From Candidatus Caldarchaeum subterraneum (GTDB taxonomy: Archaea > Thermoproteota > Nitrososphaeria_A > Caldarchaeales > Caldarchaeaceae), in NCBI GenBank assembly GCA_937934305.1, contig CALHAG010000015.1, positions 1 through 41,765 on the forward strand: DNA of 41,765 nucleotides, read 5' to 3'. Positions 28,623 to 41,765 of this stretch are shown piece by piece; within the stretch, counting starts at the first letter, position 1; every line of letters starts with the position of its first letter. Both the position numbers and the translations under genes were made by a program. Under the pieces are notes generated by a model, which had not been told where the DNA came from, did not search any database, and saw only the letters and a list, made by a program, of their open reading frames with translations.

Positions 28623-29765
28623 TTGCCCCGCGACAGGAGATGGCTGCTTCTTTCATGGTTGTTTGTCGACCGAATAGTCTACACCCTTAACTGGCTCGCA
28701 ATCTCTCCGGCCCAGCCCTTTCTCGCAACAGAATTCAACATAGGTTTAAGCGCGCTCGGAATACTTGGAGCAGTTTTTCTCCTCGGTGTAGCCCTTTTCC
28801 AGCTTCCTGCGGCGATTTTGGCTGCACGTTATGGGGCCAAGAAGATAGCGTTGCTCGGCTTGTTTCTCTCCTCATTTTTCGCAGGTTTGTGTGGTCTGGC
28901 TCCCGCCTTCGAGTATCTTCTGGTTCTCCGTTTCCTGACGGGGGTTTTTCTCAGTTTCTTCTTCGGACCCGGCATCACCTTCTTCACCCCGTTGTTCAAC
29001 ACACGCGAGAGAGGAACCGCTGTCGGCGTCTATAACGCGGGGTTTCACACAGGTACGCTTGTTACGCTGGGTGTATGGCCAACCATAATGAGCTTGTATG
29101 GTTGGAGGCTTGGTTTACTTGTTCCCGGCGTGGCTGGTGTGTTGCTGGCTTTCGCCACCTACTGGGTGTCGAGATGGGTGGAGGACCCGGTTGACCCGCG
29201 TGGAGTTCATGTGTCAACCATTGGGAACAGGCTTGTTCTCTACTCTGCTCTCGGACTCGGGTTCGCTGGTGCTGCTTGGTATCCGTTGACACAGTTCGGC
29301 ATCCTTTACCTAACCAGCGAAGCTAAGCTCGACGTCGGCATCGCTGGGGCTATGGTGTCTGTTTTGTCGCTGGGCAGTGTTGTGGGTGCGCCTCTGTCCG
29401 GCAGGCTCTATGATAGGGCCCGTGACCGGAAACGCCTCCTCTACCTTCTTAACCTCCTCAACTCAGTCTCCCTTGCAGCCTTCTCTATCAGCCCCGTTCA
29501 AGCCATCATCCCGATTGTTTTCATGACAGGCCTCTTCTACACAGCGTCAAACAACCTCTACTACGTCACGCCTATGATGGTTGTCAGCCAGTCGGAAATC
29601 GCGGTGACAGTTGCGACCGTTAACATGGTGCATCTTCTCGCGGCATCGGCTATTCCCTACGTGTTTTCGGCCGTGGCGGAGAGCTGGGGATATTTCGCGG
29701 GATGGATGATGATGGTTTTTGTTAGTTTGTTGGCTGTTTTGTGTGTTTGGCGGATGAGGTTTTAA
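28623..29765 (+). CDS. Major facilitator superfamily transporter
   Basis: A 380-residue MFS transporter with twelve predicted membrane helices. The loop 2-3 motif reads AARYGAKKIALLGLFLSS, resembling the family's GxxxDRxGRR box, and GRLYDRARDRKRLLYL repeats it between helices 8 and 9. The start is TTG 28623, one base after the atpB stop. No neighbour points to a substrate; nitrate or organic-anion transport are guesses. Confidence 0.85.
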   Translation: MPRDRRWLLLSWLFVDRIVYTLNWLAISPAQPFLATEFNIGLSALGILGAVFLLGVALFQLPAAILAARYGAKKIALLGLFLSSFFAGLCGLAPAFEYLLVLRFLTGVFLSFFFGPGITFFTPLFNTRERGTAVGVYNAGFHTGTLVTLGVWPTIMSLYGWRLGLLVPGVAGVLLAFATYWVSRWVEDPVDPRGVHVSTIGNRLVLYSALGLGFAGAAWYPLTQFGILYLTSEAKLDVGIAGAMVSVLSLGSVVGAPLSGRLYDRARDRKRLLYLLNLLNSVSLAAFSISPVQAIIPIVFMTGLFYTASNNLYYVTPMMVVSQSEIAVTVATVNMVHLLAASAIPYVFSAVAESWGYFAGWMMMVFVSLLAVLCVWRMRF

Positions 29766-29797
29766 CCACTCTGTAGTGGTGAAATGGTTAAATAAAA
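29761..29797 (+). promoter_or_regulatory. Nested inverted repeats overlapping the TATA of the flavoprotein-UbiA operon
   Basis: Two inverted repeats are nested: TTTAACCA (29761-29768) with TGGTTAAA (29785-29792), and ACCACT (29765-29770) with AGTGGT (29775-29780). The right half-site merges with the TATA GTTAAATAAAA (29787-29797), about 25 bases before the ATG at 29817. This could be an operator that blocks TBP, or the hairpin could end the MFS transcript; sequence alone cannot decide. Confidence 0.5.
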
Positions 29798-29816
29798 ACA
29801 ACAACATAAACCAGAC

Positions 29817-30290
29817 ATGAACGTTTTCGAGGAAGCCGAGGAGATAATGGAGAACGCCTTGGTCTCCTCCCTTAGCGTAGTAACTCCCTCGGGAGAGGTT
29901 TTGACAAACCCCATGCTTCCACTCTACAGCCGCGAACGCAAAAAACTCTACATGACATCCAGCATACTCTTCAGCAAGAAAATCAACTACATCAAACAGA
30001 ACCCGCGTGTTGGCGTGCTTTTCAGCGGCCGACCATTCATCAAAACGCCGCGATATTCCGCACTACACGTCAAAGGCGACGCGAAAATCTACGAGGAAAA
30101 CCTTCACAGCGGCTGGGAGTGGCTTGTCGACTTGTGGCGCGCGAAGGAGCCCTACATAGAGGCCTTCATCAAGCAAAGGGTTGCTCTACCACTTTTCTGG
30201 GAAAGAGCAGTGATTGAGATTGAGCCGAGAGAATTGCTACTGTGGCCCGGTGGCGATTTTTCAAGGGAGCCGCTGAGGTGGAGGGCATGA
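29817..30290 (+). CDS. Pyridoxamine 5'-phosphate oxidase-like flavin-binding protein
   Basis: A 157-residue split-barrel protein of the PNPOx-like FMN/F420-binding superfamily. The core runs ALVSSLSVVTPSGEVLTNPM, KLYMTSSILFSKKINYIKQN and PRVGVLFSG, matching the strands that contact the cofactor phosphate. It is expressed from a leaderless promoter and overlaps the next gene by four bases (ATGA). The N-terminus of that next gene is a second PNPOx-like domain, so the two may pair as a heterodimeric flavoprotein attached to the prenyltransferase. Confidence 0.8.
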   Translation: MNVFEEAEEIMENALVSSLSVVTPSGEVLTNPMLPLYSRERKKLYMTSSILFSKKINYIKQNPRVGVLFSGRPFIKTPRYSALHVKGDAKIYEENLHSGWEWLVDLWRAKEPYIEAFIKQRVALPLFWERAVIEIEPRELLLWPGGDFSREPLRWRA

Positions 30291-31612
30291 GCATCGCGGC
30301 CGAGATAGAGAAATACAGCGACGTGGTCGTCTCATACCTCGACCGGGACGGCTATCCCATCAGCTTCTCCACAACCATGAGATACAGCGAAGGCAAACTC
30401 ATCATCGAAAAACCGCCATATCTCAACCCACCCAAGAAAATAACCGTCCTCCTGAACCACATAACCCCACTACCCACAGGAGGATACACCGACAGAAGAT
30501 ACTTGATGATGAAGGGCGAAGCCTTGACAGAGGGCAACACCATTATCTTCAAACCATTCAAGCAATATGGATGGGACGAGAAAACCAAACCATTCTTCCA
30601 ATACTGTGAAGAAAGAGTTCCGCAGGCGAAAAGCTATGTGACAAGGTTGAGCAAGGCTTTGGGCAGGCAGGTTAAACCGCGTCTTCCAACGCTTCAACTC
30701 CTCTTCAGAGCAACAAGGTTCCCATTCCTCACAGCAACCGCCGCACCCGTCCTTATCGGAGTAGGCACAGCCGCCTACCTAGGCTACTTCGACCCGCTGC
30801 TCTTCATCCTTACACTGGTAGGCGCGAGCCTGATACATCTCGCCCTCAACATGACAAACGACTACTACGACACAAAACTCGGAGCAGACCCTGCAAACAT
30901 CACGCCAACACCTTTCAGCGGAGGCTCACGAATACTACACTACGGTCTAATGACACCTAAGCAACTGCTGTCGCTAATTGTGCTCTTCTACGGCGTCGGC
31001 ATAGCGATAGGCCTCTACCTCGCTTTTCTCAGGGGCCTCATACCGATACTGGCGGTGATGACCACAGGTGTCTTGATAAGTATCTTCTACACTGCTCCGC
31101 CTCTCAAGCTTGCCTACAGAGGGTTGGGTGAGTTAGCTGTGGGTATAGGCTTCGGCCCAATCATCGTTCTCGGAAGCCACTACGTCCAGACACAGTTTTT
31201 CTCCCTCGAGGCCCTCGTCGCCTCTATACCCATAGGCATACTCATAATGCTCATTCTCTATGTCAACGAGATACCTGACGCACCCTACGACAAAGCAGCA
31301 GGGAAACTAACACTGGTCACACGTCTCTCAAGAGAAAACGTGCTCAAGGGATACAAGCTATCTCTCGCAGCCACCTACGCCGTGATAGTGGCCGCTGTGG
31401 CTCTGAGACTGGCTCCGCCGACTACACTGATAGCCCTCGCCACAATCCCAAAAGCCATCTCAACAGTTAGAAACGTCGCCCAGACATACGGCAACCCCTA
31501 CCTAATGATTCCAGCCCTCGCGTCCAACATCAACGTCGCAACCCTCACAGGACTGCTGCACGCCGCAGGCTTCTTCCTCTGGGCCCTAATTTCATTCACA
31601 ATAAATCTATAA
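30287..31612 (+). CDS. Fusion of a PNPOx-like flavin domain with a UbiA prenyltransferase
   Basis: A 441-residue protein. Residues 1 to ~130 resemble a PNPOx-like split barrel (VVVSYLDRDGYPISFSTTMR, KITVLLNHI, YLMMKGEA), and residues ~145-441 form a UbiA-type membrane prenyltransferase. The two Asp-rich motifs are NMTNDYYDTKLGAD near 188-201 and NEIPDAPYDKAAGK near 326-339. UbiA enzymes of the MenA group attach an isoprenoid tail to an aromatic ring in menaquinone synthesis. I chose ATG 30287, which overlaps the upstream stop by four bases; the frame begins at 30242. A soluble flavin domain joined to UbiA is unusual; a local redox step on the ring before or after prenylation is one possibility. 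Confidence 0.82.
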   Translation: MSIAAEIEKYSDVVVSYLDRDGYPISFSTTMRYSEGKLIIEKPPYLNPPKKITVLLNHITPLPTGGYTDRRYLMMKGEALTEGNTIIFKPFKQYGWDEKTKPFFQYCEERVPQAKSYVTRLSKALGRQVKPRLPTLQLLFRATRFPFLTATAAPVLIGVGTAAYLGYFDPLLFILTLVGASLIHLALNMTNDYYDTKLGADPANITPTPFSGGSRILHYGLMTPKQLLSLIVLFYGVGIAIGLYLAFLRGLIPILAVMTTGVLISIFYTAPPLKLAYRGLGELAVGIGFGPIIVLGSHYVQTQFFSLEALVASIPIGILIMLILYVNEIPDAPYDKAAGKLTLVTRLSRENVLKGYKLSLAATYAVIVAAVALRLAPPTTLIALATIPKAISTVRNVAQTYGNPYLMIPALASNINVATLTGLLHAAGFFLWALISFTINL

Positions 31613-31637: not shown

Positions 31638-32714
31638 ATGGCTAAGAAAACTAAAGCAGGAAAACCCTCTTACGTAGGTGCTCTTCGTGGAAAAGATTTC
31701 CTTAACACAAACGACTTCAGCCAAGAAGAGATAAGCACCATTCTCAAGGCTGCACGAGACCTTCGCGAAAAATTCCGTGCACGCAAACCCACAGAGTATC
31801 TCAAAGGCCAGACGCTTTTCATGCTTTTCTACAACCGCTCACTACGCACCCGAAACAGCTTTGAAGCCGGAATCTACCAGCTCGGTGGACATGCACATTT
31901 CCTCAGCCCTTCAGACGTCTATACACCAACGCTTCCCGAGGACATGATACCTTACCAGACCGAATCCATAGCTGACGTGGCACGTGTTCTCAGCACATAC
32001 GGAGACGCGATAGCTGTCAGGATTTATGGTGACGCGGCGAAGTGGCACATCGGCAGAGGCCACAGGGTCATTCAAGAATTTGCGAAATGGGCCACCATCC
32101 CTGTCCTCAACATGGAGGACGACATCTACCACCCGTTCCAAGCCCTCGCAGACATGATGGCTATACAGGATGTAGCACCCAAGCCCCGCGGCAAGAAATT
32201 CGTCGTCTCCTACGCATATTCTGGAGGGTTGAAGCCCCTCGCCGTTCCCCAGAGCTGCATACTCATAGGAACACAGTTCGGCATGGATGTTGTCCTAGCG
32301 CATCCACCGGGCTTTGAACTCGAGGACCATGTCATAGAAGCATGCAGGAAAAACGTGGAGCAGTATGGTGGCTCATTCACCATCACAAACGACATGAAAG
32401 AAGCCTTCGAAGGAGCGGACTTTGTCTATCCAAAAGCATGGTCGCCGAAGAAATTCTTCCCACCATACAACTCGACCGTTGACAAGGAAGGTGCTATGAA
32501 ATATCAGGACCAGTTCAAAAACTGGATAACCACCCCCGAGTTGATGGATTTGACAAACAGAGGCAAGTACATGCACTGCGGCCCAGCCGACAGAGGTCAG
32601 GAGGTTGTCGACGAGGTGATAGACAGCCCACGCTACTCGCTCTACTTCCAGCAGGCTGAGAACAGGCTGCATGTGCAGAAAGCTGTTATGTCGATGACGA
32701 TGGGGAGAAGATGA
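31638..32714 (+). CDS. Knotted carbamoyltransferase, YgeW/N-acetylornithine carbamoyltransferase-like
   Basis: A 358-residue transcarbamylase. The carbamoyl-phosphate loop SLRTR is at 68-72 in FYNRSLRTRNSFEAG, HPFQ at 165-168, and a proline-rich segment LKPLAVPQS near 198-206 fits the extra loop that knots the acetylornithine/succinylornithine carbamoyltransferases and YgeW. FVYPKAWSP and AENRLHVQKAVM also recall that group rather than true OTCase. The HCLP motif reads HCGP (313-316), a Leu-to-Gly change in the substrate pocket. The next gene's ATG overlaps the stop by four bases. The substrate is probably not ornithine; direction (breakdown or synthesis) is unknown, but a carbamate kinase in the same operon points to carbamoyl phosphate as fuel. 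Confidence 0.82.
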   Translation: MAKKTKAGKPSYVGALRGKDFLNTNDFSQEEISTILKAARDLREKFRARKPTEYLKGQTLFMLFYNRSLRTRNSFEAGIYQLGGHAHFLSPSDVYTPTLPEDMIPYQTESIADVARVLSTYGDAIAVRIYGDAAKWHIGRGHRVIQEFAKWATIPVLNMEDDIYHPFQALADMMAIQDVAPKPRGKKFVVSYAYSGGLKPLAVPQSCILIGTQFGMDVVLAHPPGFELEDHVIEACRKNVEQYGGSFTITNDMKEAFEGADFVYPKAWSPKKFFPPYNSTVDKEGAMKYQDQFKNWITTPELMDLTNRGKYMHCGPADRGQEVVDEVIDSPRYSLYFQQAENRLHVQKAVMSMTMGRR

Positions 32715-33739
32715 GAACCGGGGAAGACATCCTCGACCTCATAGGCAACACACCATTGCTCAGGCTACGAAATATTGAGAAACAACATGGAGTAGAGGCG
32801 GAGATATGGGCTAAGCTCGAGTTCTACAACCCCTCGGGCAGCCTAAAAGACCGCATATACCGCGAAATGATAACAAGGGCCATCGAGAGGGGCGACCTCA
32901 GACCCGGGATGGAGATTCTCGAAGTCTCGACGGGCAACGCGGGCATAGCATGCACCTTCGTCGGAACACATCTAGGCTACAGAGTCACCATTGTAATGCC
33001 CGAGGGAATGAGCGAGGAGCGTAAACAGCTGATAAAGGCTTTCGGCGGCAACCTCGTCTTCACACCGGGGGCGGAGTCTGATGTAGACCTCAGCCTAAGA
33101 AAAGCCGAGGAAATGATGAGGCAAAACCCGGGCAAATACTGGTTCCCCAACCAGTTCACCAACCCCGACAACATCCAAGCTCACATCAAAACCACGGGGC
33201 CCGAGATATGGGAGCAGACAAAAGGCAAAGTGGACGCCTTCGTGATGTCGCAGGGCTCAGGAGGAACAGTCAGCGGAGTTGGAAAATTTCTCAAGGAAAA
33301 GAACCCGAGCGTGAAGATATACACAGTCGAGCCCAGCGAAGCCCCCATCATCAGCGAAGGCAAATGGGGTTCACACAAAATCGAGGGCATAGGCGACGGC
33401 TTCATACCCCGCAACCTCGACCTCGGCGTATGCGACGGAGTCGTGACAACAACCTCCGACGAGTCAATCGCGATGGCTAGACAGCTCGCACGTCTCGAGG
33501 GAATATTCGGCGGAATATCCTCGGGATGCAACGTCGCCGCCGCCGTCAAAGTCGCCAAAAAACATCCAAGCCTCCGAAAGATAGTGACCCTGATATGCGA
33601 CTCGGGAAACAGATATCTCTCCACGGAGCTGTATGGCGAGGGTAAGAAAACCACCGTCCCCGAGCGTGAGCACCCCCTCGACGAATACACAAAAACCATC
33701 AGAGAGAAGCATTTACCGCGGCTTGAGATAATCAGGTGA
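32711..33739 (+). CDS. Cysteine synthase-like PLP enzyme (fold type II)
   Basis: A 342-residue beta-replacing/lyase-type PLP enzyme. The PLP lysine is K46 in NPSGSLKDRIY, the phosphate-binding loop reads GSGGTVSGVG, and EGIGDGFIPRNLD and GGISSGCNVAAAV follow the O-acetylserine sulfhydrylase pattern. The substrate loop, normally TSGNTG, reads STGNAG (73-78), which may signal a different amino-acid substrate. The gene is translationally coupled (ATGA) to the carbamoyltransferase, so a role in the same pathway is more likely than general cysteine synthesis. Confidence 0.82.
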   Translation: MRTGEDILDLIGNTPLLRLRNIEKQHGVEAEIWAKLEFYNPSGSLKDRIYREMITRAIERGDLRPGMEILEVSTGNAGIACTFVGTHLGYRVTIVMPEGMSEERKQLIKAFGGNLVFTPGAESDVDLSLRKAEEMMRQNPGKYWFPNQFTNPDNIQAHIKTTGPEIWEQTKGKVDAFVMSQGSGGTVSGVGKFLKEKNPSVKIYTVEPSEAPIISEGKWGSHKIEGIGDGFIPRNLDLGVCDGVVTTTSDESIAMARQLARLEGIFGGISSGCNVAAAVKVAKKHPSLRKIVTLICDSGNRYLSTELYGEGKKTTVPEREHPLDEYTKTIREKHLPRLEIIR

Positions 33740-33815
33740 GAAGGATATAGCGGGGTTCGAATACGACGACGAGCATGGAATTGTCAAGGACCCTTTACTT
33801 GGCGGCAGAGTATTA
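33732..33815 (+). other. In-frame, protein-like extension upstream of the V4R gene without a standard start
   Basis: The frame is open from 33732 and encodes a protein-like stretch (GFEYDDEHGIVKDPLLGGRV) that resembles the N-terminus of V4R proteins, yet has no ATG, GTG or TTG before 33816. AGGTGA at 33734-33739, a match to the 16S 3' end, lies seven bases before an ATA at 33747; the same site and spacing precede the carbamate kinase ATG. An AUA start would give a 165-residue protein. Confidence 0.45.
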
Positions 33816-34244
33816 ATGCTATCCGGGAGGCTTTTTACAGAGATGAGAACTCTCCTCTCAGAGTCTATGTCAAGGCCCGCTGTAGACACGCTGCTGTGGC
33901 ACATGGGTAACAAGTATGGTTTGGCGTTGGGAAGGCGGACGAAAAAGATGGCGAAGACACGGGGAGAGGCTGTTGAGCTTCTGGCAAATGCTGCGCAGAG
34001 GTCTGGCTGGGGAAAAATAACAATCAGCGATGGCTTCGAGACAACCGGGAAAATGGTGGTGGTTTTCGAGAATTGTGTTTTCTGCGAAGGTCTGATAAGT
34101 GAGAAAACATCTGCGTGTAGTTTTCTCTCGGGGATTCTGGCCGGAATAGCTGAGTCGCTCTACGACAAAGGTGTGAGTATTCAGGAGGAGCTTTGCAGAG
34201 CAGCTGGTGGAGGGGTCTGCAGATTCAACATTCAAACGGTGTAG
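33816..34244 (+). CDS. V4R-domain (4-vinyl reductase) small-molecule-binding protein
   Basis: At least 142 residues of a V4R domain, a fold of the NO-signalling/heme-binding HNOB relatives that binds hydrocarbons or other small hydrophobic ligands. The Cys-rich end VVFENCVFCEGL ... TSACSFLSGILAGI ... CRAAGGGVCRFNI is typical. ATG 33816 is the first standard start, but the upstream frame suggests a longer protein. It sits between two PLP enzymes, so it may be a sensor or carrier for the pathway. A regulator role is conjecture. Confidence 0.8.
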   Translation: MLSGRLFTEMRTLLSESMSRPAVDTLLWHMGNKYGLALGRRTKKMAKTRGEAVELLANAAQRSGWGKITISDGFETTGKMVVVFENCVFCEGLISEKTSACSFLSGILAGIAESLYDKGVSIQEELCRAAGGGVCRFNIQTV

Positions 34245-34263
34245 CCGCTTGTTTGTCGAAAAA

Positions 34264-35493
34264 ATGGTCTGCTCACGATGTCGAACAGAATACAATCCAT
34301 TGAGCAACCCGATTCTCTGCAGAAACAATGACAACGGCCGCCTGGACATTGTTTATGACTATGACCGCGTAGCCGAGTCTTTTTCAAAGTCCTCCATTGA
34401 GAAGCGTGTTCCAAGAGGTGTTTGGCGTTACTGGGAGCTTATCCCCGTTGACCAGCGTTACGCCTCTCCACTAGGTGAGGGCAACACGCCTCTGCTTCAT
34501 GCTCAGCGGCTTGGCGGGGAACTTGGTGTCAGGAGGCTTTTTCTCAAGGATGAGACGCGTAACCCGACGGCCTCGTTCAAGGACCGTGCGATGGCTGTGG
34601 GTGCGGCGAAGGCTGTTGAAATGGGTAGGAAGGATGTGGTCATAGCATCGAGCGGTAACGCTGCATCCTCTCTGGCCGCTTACAGCGCATCCCTCGGTCT
34701 AAGGTGCACGGCCTTTGTTCCAGAGGACGTTGCGATAGGGAAGGCTTCGCAGCTTCTGCTCTATGGTGCAAGGGTTCTCCGCGTCAAGCAGGTCGAAGAG
34801 GGCCGCGACCCAACGGTTGACCTGATGATGCAGACTGTAAAGGAGCTGGGCTGGTATCCCTGCCCAAGCTTCGGACCCTTCAACCCCTACCAAGTCGAGG
34901 GCCCCAAAACCATCATCTATGAGATGGTTGAGCAGATGGGCTGGAGTGTTCCCGACTTTGTCTTCATACCCACGGGCTCGGGCTGCCTGGCAACAGGAAT
35001 ATGGAAAGCGTTGAAAGAGCTGCGTCTACTCGGATTAATCGAGAATTATCCAAAGATGGTGCCTGTCCAGCCCAGTGGAAACATGCCTCTCGTCAGAGCA
35101 ATTCTTCAGGGTAAAAGTTTTGAGGAGGTCGAGCCGGAGAAATGGCCCAAATCCATAGCATCAGGTCTTCTCGACCCATATCCATGGGACGGTGACGCTG
35201 CGATTGAGGGTGTGAGAACAACGGGTGGAACAGCTGTCGCTGTTGAAGAGGAAGAGATTAGAGACGCTGTAAAGAAGCTGGCGCGTCTTGAAGGAGTTTT
35301 CGCCGAGCCATCCGGCGCAGTCGGAGTGGCCGCTGTCCAGAAACTCCTAGAACAAGGTGTTTTAGATGCCTCGGACACCGTGGTTGTTCTGGTGACGGCT
35401 TCGGGGCTTAAAGAACCGGAAAAAATAGCCTCCACAGCCGAGCTTCCACTGATACAGCCTGCCCTGAGTGAGCTGATGAGGTATTTATCTTAG
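34264..35493 (+). CDS. thrC: Threonine synthase-like PLP enzyme with N-terminal Cys motif
   Basis: A 409-residue PLP enzyme of the threonine synthase group, which converts O-phosphohomoserine to threonine. A small N-terminal Cys motif (CSRC at 3-6, C19) recalls the zinc ribbon of archaeal ThrC but shows only three cysteines. The PLP lysine is K106 in NPTASFKDRAMA, the loop is SSGNAASS, and VTASGLKEP near the C-terminus replaces the usual TGHGLKDP. ATG 34264 begins right before the ribbon and lies 19 bases after the V4R stop; the frame runs back to 34207 inside that gene. It could be real threonine synthase or a paralogue acting in the carbamoyl pathway. Confidence 0.8.
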   Translation: MVCSRCRTEYNPLSNPILCRNNDNGRLDIVYDYDRVAESFSKSSIEKRVPRGVWRYWELIPVDQRYASPLGEGNTPLLHAQRLGGELGVRRLFLKDETRNPTASFKDRAMAVGAAKAVEMGRKDVVIASSGNAASSLAAYSASLGLRCTAFVPEDVAIGKASQLLLYGARVLRVKQVEEGRDPTVDLMMQTVKELGWYPCPSFGPFNPYQVEGPKTIIYEMVEQMGWSVPDFVFIPTGSGCLATGIWKALKELRLLGLIENYPKMVPVQPSGNMPLVRAILQGKSFEEVEPEKWPKSIASGLLDPYPWDGDAAIEGVRTTGGTAVAVEEEEIRDAVKKLARLEGVFAEPSGAVGVAAVQKLLEQGVLDASDTVVVLVTASGLKEPEKIASTAELPLIQPALSELMRYLS

Positions 35494-35497
35494 AAAA

Positions 35498-35503
35498 AGG
35501 TGA
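35498..35503 (+). promoter_or_regulatory. Shine-Dalgarno site of carbamate kinase
   Basis: AGGTGA matches the complement of the 16S 3' end and lies seven bases before the ATG at 35511. It shows that internal genes of this operon use SD-led initiation while the first gene is leaderless. Confidence 0.7.
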
Positions 35504-35510
35504 AGCCTAC

Positions 35511-36467
35511 ATGGATAGAAGCGAGCTCATCGTTGTGGCTCTTGGAGGCAACGCGCTTCTGAGACGAGGTGACAAGGGGTCTTTTGAAGAGCAGTACAGG
35601 AACGTGGGCGACGCGGCTAAGTATCTCGCCGACATAGTTGAAGCTGGTCATCGGCTTGTCATTACCCACGGCAACGGCCCACAGGTCGGTGCCACGCTTC
35701 TGCGTCATGACGCTGGCCAAAAGCTACACAGCATCCCGGCTTTTCCCATGGATGCCTGCGGAGCCGAGACACAGGGCTTCATAGGCTACATCATTCAGCA
35801 AAACCTTCGCAACGAGCTCAAGAGACGCGGCATCGACAAATACGTGATAACAGTCGTGACACGGGTAATCGTTGATAAAAACGACCCGGCGTTCAGCAAC
35901 CCAACTAAACCCATCGGCCCATTCTACACAAAAGAAGAGATGGAGAAAATCAAGGCGGAGCATCCCGAGTATGTTTTCGTGGAGGACAAGGCCCGAGGAG
36001 GCTGGAGAAGAGTTGTGCCGTCCCCCGACCCAAAAATCATCGCCGAGAGACATGCGATAAGGAAGCTTGTTGACGAAGGGTTCATAGTTGTGGCAAGCGG
36101 CGGAGGCGGGATACCGATAGTTGAAGAAAACGGCAGAGCATATGGGGTGGAGGCAGTAATCGACAAAGACCTCGCAGGTGAGAAGCTCGCCGAATTGATC
36201 GGGGCAGACCGTTTCATCATTCTGACAGATGTCGACGGAGCCTACTTAAACTATGGAAAACCTGACCAGAAGAAGCTGGAGAAAGTGTCAGCGGCTGAGG
36301 CGAGGCGCTACCTGGAGCAAGGACATTTCGGCTCAGGCTCGATGCTTCCCAAGGTGTTGGCATGCATAAGGTTTATCGAGGCAGGCGGCAAAGAGGCAGT
36401 GATCGCCGAGCTTTCTCAATTTAAGGAAGCTTTGGCAGGCTCGGCGGGAACCCACTTTACTCCCTAA
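35511..36467 (+). CDS. arcC: Carbamate kinase
   Basis: A 318-residue carbamate kinase of the amino-acid-kinase fold, forming ATP from ADP and carbamoyl phosphate. The N-terminal VVALGGNALLRRGDKG, THGNGPQVG, DACGAETQGFIGY, VVASGGGGIPIV, IDKDLAGEKLA, LTDVDGAYLNYG and FGSGSMLPKV are all family landmarks and length is normal. It is the last gene of the five-gene operon and converges on the second carbamoyltransferase with a shared CTAA stop. Its presence argues that the carbamoyltransferases run toward carbamoyl phosphate and that ATP is conserved. Confidence 0.96.
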   Translation: MDRSELIVVALGGNALLRRGDKGSFEEQYRNVGDAAKYLADIVEAGHRLVITHGNGPQVGATLLRHDAGQKLHSIPAFPMDACGAETQGFIGYIIQQNLRNELKRRGIDKYVITVVTRVIVDKNDPAFSNPTKPIGPFYTKEEMEKIKAEHPEYVFVEDKARGGWRRVVPSPDPKIIAERHAIRKLVDEGFIVVASGGGGIPIVEENGRAYGVEAVIDKDLAGEKLAELIGADRFIILTDVDGAYLNYGKPDQKKLEKVSAAEARRYLEQGHFGSGSMLPKVLACIRFIEAGGKEAVIAELSQFKEALAGSAGTHFTP

Positions 36468-37483
36468 ATTTTTCCAGCCACCAAAGCCAGTATAGCCGCT
36501 CTCACATAGAGCAGGTTCTCAGCCTGGTCGTATATCACGCTTCGCGGACCGTCCATAACATCGTCATCCGCCTCCTGTCCACGGAACACTGGAAGCACAT
36601 GCGTCACTATACCATGCCTTGACATGAGGTCTGTCAACTCGCGTGTAAGCTTCCAATCCCTGTATTTGTTGTGCAGCTCGATTTCTTTTTCGCGGCCGAA
36701 CCTGTTCATGCCTGTGATTACACATTCGTGGCTAGCCCAGCTTCTCGGAAAAACCGCGTCAGCGTTTTCGAGAGCCTCTCTGTAGCTGTGGCTGATGGTC
36801 AGGGAGCCGCCGCTCTCCTCCGCGTTCTTTTTCGCCAGCTTCACAAGGTTTTCGTCTATGTCGAAGCCGGGGGGATAAGCGAGAACTACATCCATGCCAT
36901 AGCGGGTGGCTATCAGCATCTCATCCTGTATGCTTCCCCAGCTGCGAACCTTGTCGCTATAAGCCCACATCAAAACATACTTTTTCTTCTCAACCCTTCC
37001 AAGCTTCTCCCGCAGTGTGTAGAGGTCTGTGATGGCTTGGCTTGGGTGAAACATGTCATCAGCCATGTTGATGACAGGGATTTTCGCGTGCTCTGCATAC
37101 TCTCTAACAACCGCGTTCCCCCTTCCATAGACATAGTCCACAGCCGACTCTAGTATCCGGACGCCGAGGACATGCCCTAGCCTCTCATACATCTTGGCTA
37201 TGTCCTTGACCGACTCGCCCTCTGCGCCGCGGGTGGTTGCGAAGTCGATGAACTGTGCGTGTCCTCCGAGCATGGTTGCGGCTGCTTCGAAGCTCGCTCT
37301 TGTCCTTGTGCTGGTGTTGTAGAAGAGCATGAACATGGTTCTGTTTTTAAAAAGCTCGGGAACGTTTCCAGAGGCCCTGGCAATCTTCAAGCTTCGCGCC
37401 AAATCCATCGCTGCATCAATTTCCTCAACACTCCAATCCTGTGAAGAAATCAGGTCCCTGCCAAATAGCTCCGTCAGAGTCAT
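36464..37483 (-). CDS. Second knotted-type carbamoyltransferase
   Basis: A 339-residue paralogue of the carbamoyltransferase at 31638. The carbamoyl-phosphate loop is STRTR at 58-62 (FYNTSTRTRASFEAA) and HPSQ is at 146-149. The loop corresponding to LKPLAVPQ reads SDKVRSWGSIQDE and lacks the prolines, and HCLP reads HVLP (295-298), changing the Cys. AENLLYVRAAILALVAG matches the acetylornithine-type C-terminus. A strong TATA (37505-37513) is 26 bases upstream. Different substitutions in the two copies suggest two substrates. It could also be this organism's biosynthetic ornithine enzyme, but the missing DxxxSMG motif argues against that. Confidence 0.82.
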   Translation of the reverse strand: MTLTELFGRDLISSQDWSVEEIDAAMDLARSLKIARASGNVPELFKNRTMFMLFYNTSTRTRASFEAAATMLGGHAQFIDFATTRGAEGESVKDIAKMYERLGHVLGVRILESAVDYVYGRGNAVVREYAEHAKIPVINMADDMFHPSQAITDLYTLREKLGRVEKKKYVLMWAYSDKVRSWGSIQDEMLIATRYGMDVVLAYPPGFDIDENLVKLAKKNAEESGGSLTISHSYREALENADAVFPRSWASHECVITGMNRFGREKEIELHNKYRDWKLTRELTDLMSRHGIVTHVLPVFRGQEADDDVMDGPRSVIYDQAENLLYVRAAILALVAGKI

Positions 37484-37504
37484 GTTCGTATCAATTTTAG
37501 CGGC

Positions 37505-37513
37505 AATTTATAC
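37505..37513 (-). promoter_or_regulatory. TATA box of the second carbamoyltransferase
   Basis: On the minus strand GTATAAATT is centred 26 bases before the start codon, implying a leaderless message. The nine bases are identical to the element at 3059-3067. Confidence 0.6.
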
Positions 37514-37550
37514 ATCACGTTAAAAACCCAATTAAACTTCATTCTTTCTC

Positions 37551-37928
37551 TCACGTGGTTGGTTTGTTGAGAAAAATTCCTAACTCATCCTTTATGACTA
37601 CACCTGTCCGCATCGTCTCCTCAGCCAAAGGTGTCTTCAGTCTTTTCTGCCTCTCAAACTCTCGAAGCGTCAAGGGTATTATCTCGAGGCTTGGAAACTT
37701 TTTCAAAACCTCAGCGACCTGCTCAAACCTGTCGAGAGGATTTGGCGCGAATCCTGGAGACACCACAAGTAGGTCAACATCGCTCCACTGGTTAAAGTCC
37801 CCTCTCGCATATGAGCCTATCAAAGCAGCCGAAACAGAGCCCACAATCATTTCCACCAACTTAACCGCTTCAGCAGCAGCCTCAGTAGCGGCCTTTCTCA
37901 TCAACCTTCTTTCCTCAACAATTCCCAT
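37551..37928 (-). CDS. Minimal nucleotidyltransferase (MNT family)
   Basis: A 125-residue small nucleotidyltransferase with the signature GSYARGDFNQWSDVDLLVVS (GS..RG.....SD.DL.V). Such MNT proteins are usually the antitoxin of HEPN-MNT pairs and inactivate the HEPN RNase by AMPylation. ATG 37928 gives MGIVEERRL; TTG 37943 would add five residues. It overlaps a 36-codon HEPN remnant on the same strand, so its partner seems to be lost here. Confidence 0.83.
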   Translation of the reverse strand: MGIVEERRLMRKAATEAAAEAVKLVEMIVGSVSAALIGSYARGDFNQWSDVDLLVVSPGFAPNPLDRFEQVAEVLKKFPSLEIIPLTLREFERQKRLKTPLAEETMRTGVVIKDELGIFLNKPTT

Positions 37929-38011
37929 CTCGACCTCACCCAATCCAAAACATTTTCAGCTCTTTTAATGGCCTCTGCCGCCTCACTTTCAGAAAAATAT
38001 TCTTCTGGCAT
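37901..38011 (-). pseudogene. C-terminal remnant of a HEPN-domain gene
   Basis: A 36-codon frame (MPEEYFSESEAAEAIKRAEN, then a helix with VLDWVRSRW) matches the last ~35 residues of HEPN-domain proteins, which typically end in PEEYYSEEDAEEAI-like text. The N-terminal helices and the RNase motif are absent; upstream lies the end of the xanthine-dehydrogenase-type gene only 32 bases away. It overlaps the MNT gene by 28 bases, as genuine HEPN-MNT pairs often do. It is probably a decayed toxin rather than a functional peptide. Confidence 0.6.
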
Positions 38012-38043
38012 GCCCGACTCCACGACATCGTGTTGCTGGTTTT

Positions 38044-40368
38044 TTATTGTCTGGATTTGTGGAGCTCTTCAAGCACCCGTTGAGGTGTGAGAGGTAGCTC
38101 CCGTATGTAGATGCCTGTGGCGTTTGCAACGGCTGCGGCTATCGATGCCGCGGGTAGGACGACAGGTATCTCTCCCATGGCTTTGGCTCCGAATACACCC
38201 ATGCTGCCCTTGACCTCGACGATGATGCTGCGGATTTCGTCGGGAGTGTCTGAAGCGGTCGGGATGACGTATGTGTGCAGGTTTGGGTTGATGACGACAC
38301 CGTCATCATGCACAATTTTCTCCATCAACGCGTATCCCTGGCCCATGATGCTTCCACCCTCATAGACAGCGACCAGCCCAAGCGGGTTTATCGCCCGTCC
38401 CACGTCGTATGCGGCGGTCAGCCTATCAACCTTGACTACTCCAGTCTCGGTGTCGACCGTCACCTCGGCAACGAGGGCTCCGTAGGTGTACTGGTTGTAG
38501 GGGGCTCCCTGCCCCGTCTCCGGGTCCCATTTGGTCGGAGGAGCTATGTAGTAGCCAACTACGCGGAGAGAAATGTTCTCCTCGAAACACTGGTTCACCA
38601 CTTCATTCCAGGTTACCGTCCTCCCATTAGCCTTCACCAGCCCATCTCTAAACTCCAAATCCGCGGGATTGGCTGAGAGCATCTTGGCAGCCACCTGCGC
38701 AACCGTGGCCCTTATCTTGAGGGCGGCGTCGAGCGCTGCCTGGCCTCCTATGACTGTTGTCCGGGATGCGACGGTGGGCCCTGCGTTGGGGACGGCTGCT
38801 GTGTCGGGTCTCTCGAGTTTGACCATGGATAGCGGAAGGCCGAGTGTTTCTGCTGTAACTATTGCGAGAGAGGTCAGGGCCCCGGTTCCATATTCTGTTA
38901 AACCTGTCTGGACAACGACTTTTCCGTCTCTCTCGACGTAGGTGATTACTGTTGCGAAATCGTCTCCCTCCGGTCCGAGAGTGTTGCCATGGTAAAGCAT
39001 CGCTATCCCAATACCTTTTTTCAAGACCTTATTTGCTCTGTTGAATTCTCTAATTTCTCTCACCCGCTTCTCCCACTCGCTTGCCTCGACAGCTCTCTGG
39101 TAACATTTGAGAAGGCCGTCGTCCTCGATTTTCTGGCTTGTGGCTGTGAGCGACCCGGGGCGTAGCATGTTTATCTCACGTATCTCCAGAGGTGAGAGGC
39201 CCAGCTCCTCGGCGAGCTCGTTCAACACCATCTCGGCCGCGAAATGTGCCTGCGGTGCCCCGAAGCCACGTGTTGACCCGGCCATAGTGTTGTTGGTGAG
39301 GACGCAGTATCCGTCGGCCCAGACATTCGGGACCTCGTAGGGTCCTGTGCAGTGGAAGGTGGCGCGGCCGATGACGAGGTGACCCTTTGAAATGTATGCG
39401 CCCGTGTCCTCTATGAGCGTCGACCGCCAAGCCAATAGCTTTCCATCATTTCTCGCCCCGACCATGTTGGTTATCTCGAATGGGTGGCGCTTACACTGAA
39501 CCGTCATCGCCTCGCTTCTGCTGAATGCCGCGAGAGCAGGCTTTCCGGTGAAATATGTGGCTAGACATGCATATGCTGCGACGTCTATCGGTGTCTCGTC
39601 GCTTTTCGGCCCGAAGCCTCCTCCCGTAGCCGCCTGAATAACGCGAAGCTTTTCCCCCGGAACCCCGAGTATCTTGACCACCTTGTTGTAGACATCGTAG
39701 AGGTTCTGGGTTGAGACTATGCATGTAATCCTTCCTCCCTCCTCCAGGAAAGAGTACGCTATCTCGGTCTCGAGAGGTAGTCCTGTGATAAACTGTGTGC
39801 GGTATGTCCTTTCGATGACGACGTCGGATTCTTTGAACCCTTTCTCCACGTCGCCTTTCCTTATCTTGAAGTGTGTTACTATGTTGTCCCTGTCTTGTAT
39901 ACGGGGTGCGCCGGGCTTCATGGCGTCGCGTGGGTTGGTCACCACCGGAAGAGGGTCATAGTCAACCTCTACATGGTCGGCCGCTTCCTCAGCGGCCTCC
40001 AGGCTTTCCCCGACCACGAGAGCAACCGCTTCCCCGATGTGTCTAACCTTCTCATAAGCCAGCAGAGGTCTATCGCTTATCAGACTCCCGGCATCGTTTA
40101 CACCGGGTATGTCTCGATGTGTAAGCACTTTGACGATACCTTGCCGGGAAGCCGCCGGAGAGGTGTCTATTTTTCTGATGTAGCCGTGGGGTATCTTGGA
40201 GCGCACCGCTTTGACGTAGAGTGTTTTGCCTGAGACGAGGTCGGCTGTGTATAGTGGTTTGCCGAGAACGGCGTCAAGGGCGTCGACACGTGCAACCTTT
40301 TTCCCGACTATGAGGAATTCACGGGCCTCGAGAATTTCCCTGAACCGCCGCGCTATTTCCTCGCTCAT
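38044..40368 (-). CDS. Xanthine dehydrogenase-type molybdenum-binding large subunit
   Basis: The 774-residue Mo-cofactor subunit of a xanthine dehydrogenase-family hydroxylase. GGGFGPKSDE lies near residue 251, STRGFGAPQAHFAAEM near 360 and the catalytic Glu in KAMGEIPVVLPAA near 730. The TRGFGAPQ loop and GEIP resemble purine/nicotinate hydroxylases (FRGFG.PQ, GEPP) rather than CO dehydrogenase. It is the last gene of a medium-small-large operon and its start overlaps the small-subunit stop by four bases. The substrate could be hypoxanthine/xanthine or another N-heterocycle or aldehyde. Confidence 0.9.
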   Translation of the reverse strand: MSEEIARRFREILEAREFLIVGKKVARVDALDAVLGKPLYTADLVSGKTLYVKAVRSKIPHGYIRKIDTSPAASRQGIVKVLTHRDIPGVNDAGSLISDRPLLAYEKVRHIGEAVALVVGESLEAAEEAADHVEVDYDPLPVVTNPRDAMKPGAPRIQDRDNIVTHFKIRKGDVEKGFKESDVVIERTYRTQFITGLPLETEIAYSFLEEGGRITCIVSTQNLYDVYNKVVKILGVPGEKLRVIQAATGGGFGPKSDETPIDVAAYACLATYFTGKPALAAFSRSEAMTVQCKRHPFEITNMVGARNDGKLLAWRSTLIEDTGAYISKGHLVIGRATFHCTGPYEVPNVWADGYCVLTNNTMAGSTRGFGAPQAHFAAEMVLNELAEELGLSPLEIREINMLRPGSLTATSQKIEDDGLLKCYQRAVEASEWEKRVREIREFNRANKVLKKGIGIAMLYHGNTLGPEGDDFATVITYVERDGKVVVQTGLTEYGTGALTSLAIVTAETLGLPLSMVKLERPDTAAVPNAGPTVASRTTVIGGQAALDAALKIRATVAQVAAKMLSANPADLEFRDGLVKANGRTVTWNEVVNQCFEENISLRVVGYYIAPPTKWDPETGQGAPYNQYTYGALVAEVTVDTETGVVKVDRLTAAYDVGRAINPLGLVAVYEGGSIMGQGYALMEKIVHDDGVVINPNLHTYVIPTASDTPDEIRSIIVEVKGSMGVFGAKAMGEIPVVLPAASIAAAVANATGIYIRELPLTPQRVLEELHKSRQ

Positions 40369-40820
40369 CGCCTGCTCACCTGTTTGAAGGCTTCTTCAAA
40401 CCGTATATAGCTGCCGCATCTACACAGCACGCTTCTGAGAGCATGTCTAACCTCCTCCCTGTCGGCGTCAGGCTTTGTGTCGTGGAGGTGTTTGAGGACT
40501 AGCAGAGCAGCTGGGATGCAGAAGCCGCACTGGACTGCGCCAACGTCTATGAAGGCTTGCTGTAGCGGGTGGAGTCGTGTGCCGTCGCCCATGCCCTCCA
40601 CGGTTGTAATCCTATGCCCCGACGCTTGATAGGCAAGCATCAGACAAGAGTTGACGGGTTTCCCGTCAAGCAAAACTATACAGAGGCCGCAGTCGCCTAC
40701 GCCGCAGCCCTCCTTCACGCTTACAAACCCCAGCTTTCTTCGGAGAACATCGCTCAGCCTCTCATTAGGCTCAACCTCGACCACGTACTTTACATCATTA
40801 ACCATGAACTCGGCCTTCAT
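40365..40820 (-). CDS. Molybdenum hydroxylase [2Fe-2S] small subunit
   Basis: A 151-residue iron-sulfur subunit passing electrons from the Mo site to FAD. The plant-ferredoxin cluster ligands are C39, C44, C47 and C59 (EGCGVGDCGLC ... NSC), and the second cluster uses C98, C101, C133 and C135 (QCGFC, LCRCG). All eight ligands are present. It lies between the FAD subunit and large subunit genes with a 6-base gap and a 4-base overlap. Confidence 0.95.
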   Translation of the reverse strand: MKAEFMVNDVKYVVEVEPNERLSDVLRRKLGFVSVKEGCGVGDCGLCIVLLDGKPVNSCLMLAYQASGHRITTVEGMGDGTRLHPLQQAFIDVGAVQCGFCIPAALLVLKHLHDTKPDADREEVRHALRSVLCRCGSYIRFEEAFKQVSRR

Positions 40821-40826
40821 CCTTCC

Positions 40827-41660
40827 TCATCTCCTCAAGTTTTGAAGAAGCCGCTTAAGCAAAACACCCGCTACCCTCCGCCGATACCATGAAGACGCTA
40901 AAACATCCGACTCCGGGTTTATTGAATCCATCATCAACCGTGAAGCCTTCTCAACAACTTCTTCCGACAACACATGTGTGGATAGAAACTTCTCCACCGT
41001 TGCTACACGGCCCGGCGTTGATCCATCCTTGTGCGAAACCGCTACACGCACCCCATTATCCCCCTCACTTGAGACAGCGACGGAGATAAGGGGAATACGT
41101 GACACACCCATCCAAAGCTTATCGAAGAAACATGAACCGTTTAGCTTGAAGGAGATAGTTTGAAGCAACCCTCTCCCACCAAATCCTCCGGCTAGAAAAG
41201 CTGTAAGCGGAACATTCTTCACACCCTCTGGGGTGGCAAAGGACAGCTCAGCGTCGAGTGTCAACAATATCGGGATCAAGTCTTCGCCTGCGGAGCGAAG
41301 CATGATGCTTCCGCCTACGGTGGCTCTGTTGGCCACGGCTGGTGAGGAGTATTTTTGGAGAAAGGTTGTGAATGCGGGGACGTGGTTAATTAAGGTTGAT
41401 GCGAGTTCTTGGTGCGTGACGAGGGAGCCGACTGTTGCCACCCCTTTGTGGTGGGAGATTTTGCGGAGATGGTGAAGGTTGTTTATGTCGATGTATTTGC
41501 GGGTGCGCTTGGCTCCGAGCGTGAGCTGCGTTATGATATGTGTTCCAGCGGCAAGTATCTCCGCGTCTGGATGAGTTTGCAGCAGGTTCAATGCCTCCTC
41601 GACGCTGCTGGGAATCATCACCTCAATCCTGGGAATACCTAGATATCCCTGCATGCTCAT
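40827..41660 (-). CDS. Molybdenum hydroxylase FAD-binding medium subunit
   Basis: A 277-residue FAD subunit of the CoxM/XdhB type. The pyrophosphate loop reads ILAAGTHIITQ, where AGGTDL is usual, and the second FAD loop reads NRATVGGSIML followed by AGEDLIPILL. The C-terminal CO_deh_flav_C-like domain is present and length is normal. Its start follows the stop of a partial upstream gene by one base, so at least four genes are cotranscribed. Confidence 0.92.
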   Translation of the reverse strand: MSMQGYLGIPRIEVMIPSSVEEALNLLQTHPDAEILAAGTHIITQLTLGAKRTRKYIDINNLHHLRKISHHKGVATVGSLVTHQELASTLINHVPAFTTFLQKYSSPAVANRATVGGSIMLRSAGEDLIPILLTLDAELSFATPEGVKNVPLTAFLAGGFGGRGLLQTISFKLNGSCFFDKLWMGVSRIPLISVAVSSEGDNGVRVAVSHKDGSTPGRVATVEKFLSTHVLSEEVVEKASRLMMDSINPESDVLASSWYRRRVAGVLLKRLLQNLRR

Positions 41661-41661
41661 T

Positions 41662-41765
41662 TTACATCAACCTCAGCGGCTCAACAGCTTCTCCCGGCTC
41701 CTCGCCCAACCTACTCCACAGACGTTCCACGGTTTTCAAGATTCTCTCCTCAGCCCTCTCCTTGT
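41662..41765 (-). CDS. C-terminal end of an unidentified protein (truncated by the window)
   Basis: The frame enters from outside the window and ends at TAA 41662-41664, encoding a charged, helical tail (KERAEERILKTVERLWSRLG and 13 more residues). It is one base upstream of the FAD subunit gene on the same strand, hence the same operon. There is too little sequence to name it. Confidence 0.55.
   Translation of the reverse strand, partial: KERAEERILKTVERLWSRLGEEPGEAVEPLRLM

Follow-up and report, generated by a model that had tools for sequence, protein, structure and literature searches.

A conserved archaeal gene cluster with two transcarbamylases, carbamate kinase and a xanthine dehydrogenase-type enzyme: a probable lower half of reductive purine degradation in Candidatus Caldarchaeum subterraneum

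The window analyzed here is a 41,765-nucleotide stretch of DNA from the hot-spring archaeon Candidatus Caldarchaeum subterraneum, namely the whole of contig CALHAG010000015.1 (C15) of a 1.56 Mb, 97% complete genome (assembly GCA_937934305.1, G000 in our collection). A preliminary description, made from the sequence alone, had proposed that the genes from position 31638 onwards form a carbamoyl-phosphate energy system, and all the genes it named are intact open reading frames. Five of them lie on the forward strand: CT1 (31638..32714, +), a YgeW-like transcarbamylase recognized by its OTCace domains, tree position, motifs and AlphaFold model; CYS (32711..33739, +), a fold-type II pyridoxal phosphate (PLP) enzyme that is an extra paralogue of the cysteine-synthase family (TIGR01139, 365 bits); a V4R-domain protein, probably a sensor or regulator (33747..34244, +; PF02830, 46.6 bits); THR (34264..35493, +), a threonine-synthase-like PLP enzyme (PRK08197, 322 bits); and CK (35511..36467, +), a carbamate kinase, which makes ATP and carbamate from carbamoyl phosphate and ADP (TIGR00746, 431 bits for a cut-off of 358). 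As described, a second transcarbamylase gene, CT2 (36464..37483, −; assigned by its own supported clade and its motifs), converges on CK, which it overlaps by 4 bases, and the operon of a xanthine dehydrogenase (XDH)-type enzyme comes next. This operon encodes the molybdopterin subunit XDHA (38044..40368, −; XdhA is the best NCBIfam family, with 508 bits, below the cut-off of 780), the [2Fe-2S] subunit XDHC (40365..40820, −; NF043084, 153 bits; Fer2 and Fer2_2) and the FAD subunit XDHB (40827..41660, −; FAD_binding_5), the last gene of the contig, which stops 105 bases further on.

The forward genes are tightly packed, and the gaps of at most about 20 bases reported earlier are found if the V4R gene starts at an AUA: CT1 and CYS overlap by 4 bases, 7 bases separate the CYS stop (33739) from an in-frame ATA (33747), 19 bases lie between the V4R stop (34244) and the THR ATG (34264), and 17 between THR and CK. 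The TATA-like box reported ahead of CT1 is also present, 22–30 bases upstream of the start codon; it recurs in the family, with different flanking bases. As for the V4R gene, its first in-frame ATG is at 33816, and the N-terminus encoded upstream of that codon (LGGRVL...) is kept in four relatives, which makes an early start credible; no in-frame ATG, GTG or TTG precedes this conserved N-terminus in the window or in G002, the complete genome of a same-genus relative (a single contig of 1,680,938 bases). Translation probably starts early, with the AUA as the likely, if unproven, start.

A carbamate kinase accompanied by extra transcarbamylases is the classical layout of arginine/citrulline or agmatine fermentation, in which CT1 or CT2 would supply CK as a catabolic carbamoyltransferase for ornithine or putrescine, and both proteins give substantial scores with the corresponding hidden Markov models. 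However, judging from their sequences, CT1 and CT2 lie outside the ornithine carbamoyltransferase (OTC) and aspartate carbamoyltransferase (ATC) families, and the concern raised in the preliminary description, that both might be ordinary ornithine enzymes, can be set aside. CT1 carries the motifs SLRT, HPFQ, a KPLAVPQ loop, YPKAW and HCGP, and CT2 carries STRT, HPSQ, RSWGSIQ, FPRSW and HVLP (in general form, KPLxVPQ plus YPKxW, i.e. a YgeW-like loop, for CT1, and RSWxSxQ plus FPRxWAS for CT2). Neither contains the DxxxSMG motif of OTCs, YPKAWSP and FPRSWAS being found instead, or the RxQ motif of ATCs. Both score below the cut-offs of the OTC model (234 bits for CT1 and 204 for CT2; cut-off 281) and of the YgeW equivalog TIGR03316 (150 bits each; cut-off 500); with the N-acetylornithine transcarbamylase model (cut-off 288), CT1 falls just short (286.7 bits) and CT2 further (223.5). 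A true OTC (on C21) and a true ATC (on C5), which both pass their equivalog cut-offs, are encoded elsewhere in the genome.

The same separation was observed in a tree of 120 transcarbamylases (quick search, no bootstrap; the CT2 alignment excludes row A2, from L060, a spurious open reading frame). CT1 and CT2 belong to distinct clades of 33 and 23 sequences, each with a support of 99, and the CT2 clade includes the partners of CT1 in Bipolaricaulota, Thorarchaeota, Elusimicrobia and Chloroflexi. Both clades fall, together with E. coli YgeW and the transcarbamylases of Chloroflexota clusters, within a 95-sequence group (support 95) set apart from N-acetylornithine transcarbamylase-like enzymes, OTCs and ATCs. 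The AlphaFold model of CT1 (pLDDT 91) best matches, in the PDB, the knotted N-acetylornithine transcarbamylase; that of CT2 is of modest quality (pLDDT 79.5), and for this protein a comparison of folds fails to tell OTC and N-acetylornithine transcarbamylase apart. Motifs, tree and the presence of a true OTC and ATC elsewhere thus rule out both proteins as ordinary members of these families. Moreover, arginine deiminase (PF02274) and agmatine deiminase (PF04371) are absent from the genome, which leaves both routes without their genes, and arginine or agmatine fermentation is in our judgement very improbable.

The neighborhood was sought in related genomes, as the preliminary description had advised, and turned out to be conserved: CT1, CYS, THR, CK, CT2 and the XDH operon are clustered in each of the seven remaining family genomes (loci L043–L049), hence in 8/8 with our own, and the gene order is far from chance. 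The gene set initially proposed nevertheless needs amending: its core stands, whereas the V4R gene, which roughly half of the family genomes carry, does not belong to it, and the neighborhood runs past the window. In G002 (locus L043), the XDH operon is followed by genes for SsnA, a coenzyme F420-type oxidoreductase (luciferase-like monooxygenase family, Mer-like) and adenine deaminase. In our genome, the same three genes open contig C23 (G000:C23:2-4135, L076), where they are followed by genes for a Bmp/PnrA-type substrate-binding protein, an ABC ATPase and two permeases, i.e. an ABC transporter of the purine-nucleoside type. Beyond the family, CT1 orthologues with 79–98% identity (a range that includes the family itself) occur in part of the genera of two further families belonging to the order, and more distant ones (56–63%) were found in two additional members of the order and in one other genome from the phylum; CK accompanies CT1 in 14 of the 16 CT1-containing genomes of the order. 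Just upstream of CT1 (28623-31612), the window also carries major facilitator superfamily transporter, PNPOx-like and UbiA-like genes, whose order is kept in the family only and which have no evident purine link.

The identity of the enzymes encoded around the cluster bears on its function. XDHA keeps the catalytic glutamate, in the motif GAKAMGE. Bacterial SsnA, and not guanine deaminase, is the nearest neighbor of the archaeal SsnA clade, whose identity is supported by phylogeny and not by a cut-off. The F420-type reductase, encoded beside SsnA, is recognized by PF00296 (243 bits). The preliminary description had noted that no hydantoinase is encoded in the window, which is correct, and had suggested looking elsewhere; the genome does encode a D-hydantoinase, on C4 (TIGR02033, 463 bits for a cut-off of 393), divergent from a second XDH operon, in addition to SsnA, adenine deaminase and the PnrA-type transporter. 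In relatives, a cyclic amidohydrolase gene lies between CT1 and CT2 (L057, genome G040), adjoins CT1 (L058), or lies near CT1 along with THR, SsnA and the F420 enzyme (L052 and L053); the apparent SsnA proteins of L057 and L058 were rejected, the tree placing both on the guanine/adenosine-deaminase side. Our genome possibly contains a second purine-type cluster: an XDH large subunit is seemingly split over the end of C4 (G000:C4:38040-42774) and the start of C28 (G000:C28:1-4407), followed by second genes for an SsnA-like amidohydrolase and an F420-type oxidoreductase and by a deoxyadenosine-deaminase-like gene.

Purines can also be degraded oxidatively, in which case CT1 and CT2 would be ureidoglycine or oxalurate-type transcarbamylases acting after uricase and allantoinase. 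An amidohydrolase that scores at the allantoinase cut-off (TIGR03178, 359 bits for 358) is indeed encoded on C1, divergent from two XDH-type large subunits (L075:9334-15306), and a ureidoglycine transcarbamylase is known from Rubrobacter (PMC4016543). Yet SsnA and the F420 enzyme fit nowhere in such a route, which makes it quite improbable.

The two PLP enzymes raise a different question, since THR and CYS pass a threonine-synthase and a cysteine-synthase cut-off, respectively. They could be amino acid biosynthesis enzymes that are neighbors of the other genes by chance, XDH being a CO or aldehyde dehydrogenase and CT1, CT2 and CK serving something else; in this order, CoxL-type enzymes carry annotations as aerobic CO dehydrogenases (PMC10547907). 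However, they are not the sole cysteine and threonine synthases, as another cysteine synthase is encoded on C1 (CYS is separate from the genome's CysM in the tree) and two further ThrC-like genes exist besides THR. Furthermore, the genes stay together as a set in different archaeal families and bacterial phyla, and CYS adjoins the orthologous XDH operon in G014, a genome in which CT1 is absent. A chance assembly is therefore extremely improbable. The closest outside relative of CYS (59% identity) sits in a Chloroflexota purine cluster, and relatives of THR recur beside transcarbamylase, CK and SsnA genes in Chloroflexota, Gammaproteobacteria and Actinomycetota. THR is a candidate for the terminal diaminopropionate enzyme, i.e. 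a counterpart of YgeX, the PLP step being the least certain part of the pathway mapping. A PALP family of about 490 residues, without a strong NCBIfam hit (L096:5134-6612 and 17 relatives), accompanies transcarbamylase/CK loci in many phyla; in archaea, its position seems to be taken by CYS.

Relatives of CT1 were found, in a scan of GTDB genomes, in Desulfurococcales, Thermogladius, Thorarchaeota, Bipolaricaulota, Chloroflexota, Elusimicrobia, Actinomycetota and other groups. The same components recur around them: THR-like or other PLP enzymes, CK, SsnA, hydantoinase, XDH, adenine deaminase, YgeY and the F420 enzyme. For instance, a single gene run of an unclassified bacterium (L134) encodes PALP, THR, two transcarbamylases, CK, XDH, SsnA and the F420 enzyme (the latter being 57–58% identical in L134 and L142, 57% in L134), and a Desulfurococcales locus (L091) contains CT1, then CK, SsnA and a PreA/UacX-like gene. 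The preliminary description had viewed the archaeal locus as an independently built counterpart of the bacterial island. This view is not supported: CT1 groups with E. coli YgeW, with which it has the KPLxVPQ loop in common, and Chloroflexota, Actinomycetota, Gammaproteobacteria and other archaea carry the same set of genes, so that the cluster is better described as a branch of one widespread module.

Among these loci, the presence of a second transcarbamylase goes with the absence of YgeY: within their neighborhoods, YgeY was found in 0/13 loci with two transcarbamylases versus 19/31 loci with one (Fisher p = 1.2e-4; loci with at least one pathway marker). The second transcarbamylase is of two unrelated types, either CT2 or a pseudo-ATCase with an HSLP motif, and the pattern thus does not reflect one inherited event. 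The pseudo-ATCase, characterized by HSLP and VxP motifs, is the second transcarbamylase of Chloroflexota and Actinomycetota purine clusters (L129, L134–L137, L140), where it likewise occurs when YgeY is missing; it corresponds to group 3 of a previous classification, whose function was then unknown (PMC4016543). The YgeY-like peptidase that the preliminary description had suggested seeking elsewhere in our genome was not found: only distant M20 proteins are encoded, which are at most 29% identical to YgeY over most of their length, versus 36–60% among the YgeY proteins of the clusters, and were therefore rejected. The simplest reading is that the second transcarbamylase does the job of YgeY by phosphorolysis. 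Such a two-transcarbamylase version would account for the combination, in many uncultured lineages, of a carbamate kinase with two transcarbamylases of unassigned function.

In E. coli, uric acid is reduced to yanthine, dearomatized, and turned by SsnA and HyuA into 2,3-diureidopropionate, on which YgeW, YgeY and YgeX then act (Li et al. 2025, PMC12507026). The genome under study holds what looks like a nearly complete parts list of this reductive pathway, and we propose that the locus probably encodes the lower half of an archaeal version of it, in a two-transcarbamylase variant. The PnrA-type ABC transporter, with adenine deaminase, would be the entry point for purines; the oxidation state of the purine ring would be set by XDH-type enzymes; the F420-dependent luciferase-family reductase would remove its aromaticity; and SsnA and D-hydantoinase would open both rings to give a diureido acid, which in E. 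coli is 2,3-diureidopropionate. Each of the two ureido groups would then be cleaved with phosphate, one by CT1 and the other by CT2, yielding two carbamoyl phosphates: CT1 would act as YgeW, on the same ureido group as in E. coli, and CT2 would take the second group, replacing YgeY. Carbamate kinase would convert both carbamoyl phosphates to ATP, and a PLP enzyme (THR or CYS) would turn diaminopropionate into pyruvate and ammonia. The purine link and the carbamoyl-phosphate/ATP logic of the preliminary description are supported by the conserved cluster and by the purine genes of the genome; overall, its interpretation was close and is partly supported.

What the sequences show is what the genes encode, that the cluster is conserved and tied to purine genes, that CT1 and CT2 stand apart from OTC and ATC, and that YgeY is lacking; the substrates, the direction of the transcarbamylase reactions, the assignment of each transcarbamylase to a ureido group, the ATP yield and the PLP roles are inferred. 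Several observations weigh against this proposal. CT1 has HCGP in place of HxLP. CYS and THR fall in branches of the PLP family other than that of YgeX, to which they are not closely related. The archaeal SsnA, although SsnA is its best NCBIfam family, scores below the cut-off (329 bits for 444), the D-hydantoinase gene is not linked to the window cluster in our genome, and no PreA/UacX-type gene was found there (YgfK was not searched for). In most genomes YgeY was sought only near the transcarbamylase genes, and a tree-corrected test of its exclusion by a second transcarbamylase provides only 4–5 independent pairs, all differing as expected, and is not significant. Finally, the XdhD insertion bearing Glu606 is found neither in XDHA, which is thus not of the XdhD type by this criterion, nor in the other XDHs of the genome that were examined, which makes the XDH step uncertain. 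Note that this insertion is also missing from the XDHs of several bacterial clusters, including YgfK–SsnA clusters, so that Glu606 may not be a general marker.

The role of the cluster may be not only energetic but also anabolic. CarA and CarB domains, and with them carbamoyl-phosphate synthetase (CPS), are absent from 8/8 family genomes, including the complete G002, whereas 14/14 control genomes were positive; our genome retains OTC, ATC and a dihydroorotate dehydrogenase. In a family devoid of CPS, the module may also supply carbamoyl phosphate. It could even be chiefly the cell's source of it, ureide phosphorolysis by CT1 and CT2, or carbamate kinase working in reverse, feeding pyrimidine and arginine synthesis. 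The retention of an OTC and an ATC scoring above cut-off is in keeping with this possibility, as is the distribution of the kinase: CPS is present in most CK-less relatives, and across the order CPS absence goes with CK presence (16/19 vs 8/25, p = 7.7e-4, not tree-corrected). There is also a precedent, Thermococcus kodakarensis, which lacks CPS and draws carbamoyl phosphate from arginine via OTC phosphorolysis; its CK, however, is dispensable (PMC13260591). Furthermore, CT1 itself is not tied to CPS loss (p = 0.21; five relatives have both), and CPS is also missing from four genera of another family (g9, g11, g13 and g14), three of which have CK: g9 has CK without CT1, and g11 has neither CK nor CPS. 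A supply role is moreover compatible with catabolism and does not exclude it. We regard carbamoyl-phosphate supply as the chief function as unlikely; the reductive degradation pathway remains our preferred reading. The preliminary description foresaw neither the family-wide absence of CPS nor the use of two transcarbamylases for YgeW plus YgeY. With the cluster comes a testable explanation of how an entire archaeal family can do without CPS.

Pyrimidine degradation presents a related situation in two other archaea of the same phylum (G056 and G063), which contain a PreT–PreA–dihydropyrimidinase–transcarbamylase operon (L065:3482-17291 and L064:1559-8170; PreA 532 bits for a cut-off of 335, D-hydantoinase 521 for 393) with a class III aminotransferase gene close by and, in L065, an NCS1-like nucleobase symporter. 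The transcarbamylase of these operons is a candidate catabolic beta-alanine transcarbamylase, which would convert N-carbamoyl-beta-alanine and phosphate to beta-alanine and carbamoyl phosphate; such an enzyme was listed as unproven in a 2015 review (PMC4581275), and the operons are specific places to look for it. In our genome, reductive pyrimidine degradation was discarded, as there is no PreA-type gene and the only PyrD is of the quinone type. Taken to its furthest, the picture would be that a dedicated transcarbamylase pair phosphorolyses both ureido groups (two carbamoyl phosphates per ring), that the carbamoyl phosphate used for pyrimidines and arginine comes mainly or solely from purines, and that a sister archaeal lineage treats pyrimidines with a catabolic beta-alanine transcarbamylase; this combination as a whole is doubtful.

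We found no description of a reductive uric acid pathway in archaea in the open-access literature searched, and the report on the E. coli pathway covers bacteria, with no mention of archaea (PMC12507026). Some XDH-type genes of these organisms that have long been taken for CO dehydrogenases may function in purine degradation. Several known systems resemble parts of the proposed one. The knotted N-acetylornithine transcarbamylase of Xanthomonas is the closest solved relative of CT1 in fold and sequence, but belongs to a separate tree group and has other loop motifs. When Rubrobacter xylanophilus degrades purines by the ureidoglycine route, an amidohydrolase is likewise followed by a reversed transcarbamylase and carbamate kinase; this route, however, is oxidative and uricase-based, and its transcarbamylase is of the ATCase branch (PMC4016543). 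The arginine synthetase pathway of T. kodakarensis shares the CPS-less archaeal setting, transcarbamylase phosphorolysis for carbamoyl phosphate and carbamate kinase, but uses a citrulline/arginine substrate and a true OTC (PMC13260591). Chloroflexota uricolytic clusters, in which a luciferase-family F420 enzyme replaces YgfK (PMC12507026), have SsnA beside this enzyme, XDH, a transcarbamylase and CK in common with the archaeal cluster; they differ in that the second transcarbamylase, if any, is mostly the pseudo-ATCase and not CT2, and in that most use YgeY. The pathway of E. coli and Clostridioides difficile (XdhD, YgfK/UacX, SsnA, HyuA, YgeW/UacY, YgeY, YgeX, YqeA; PMC12507026) shares with the archaeal set SsnA, hydantoinase, a YgeW-type transcarbamylase, carbamate kinase, an XDH-type enzyme and a fold-type II PLP enzyme. 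Unlike it, the archaeal version would place an F420-type reductase in the YgfK/UacX role; it has PLP enzymes of the threonine- and cysteine-synthase types instead of YgeX, an XDH without the XdhD glutamate and, above all, two transcarbamylases with no YgeY found. In E. coli, YgeW phosphorolyses the 2-ureido group, as judged from a HyuA-coupled assay, and YgeY hydrolyses the other, so that one carbamoyl phosphate is obtained (PMC12507026); the archaeal variant, if correct, would double substrate-level ATP formation from ureide cleavage, giving up to two ATP per purine ring.

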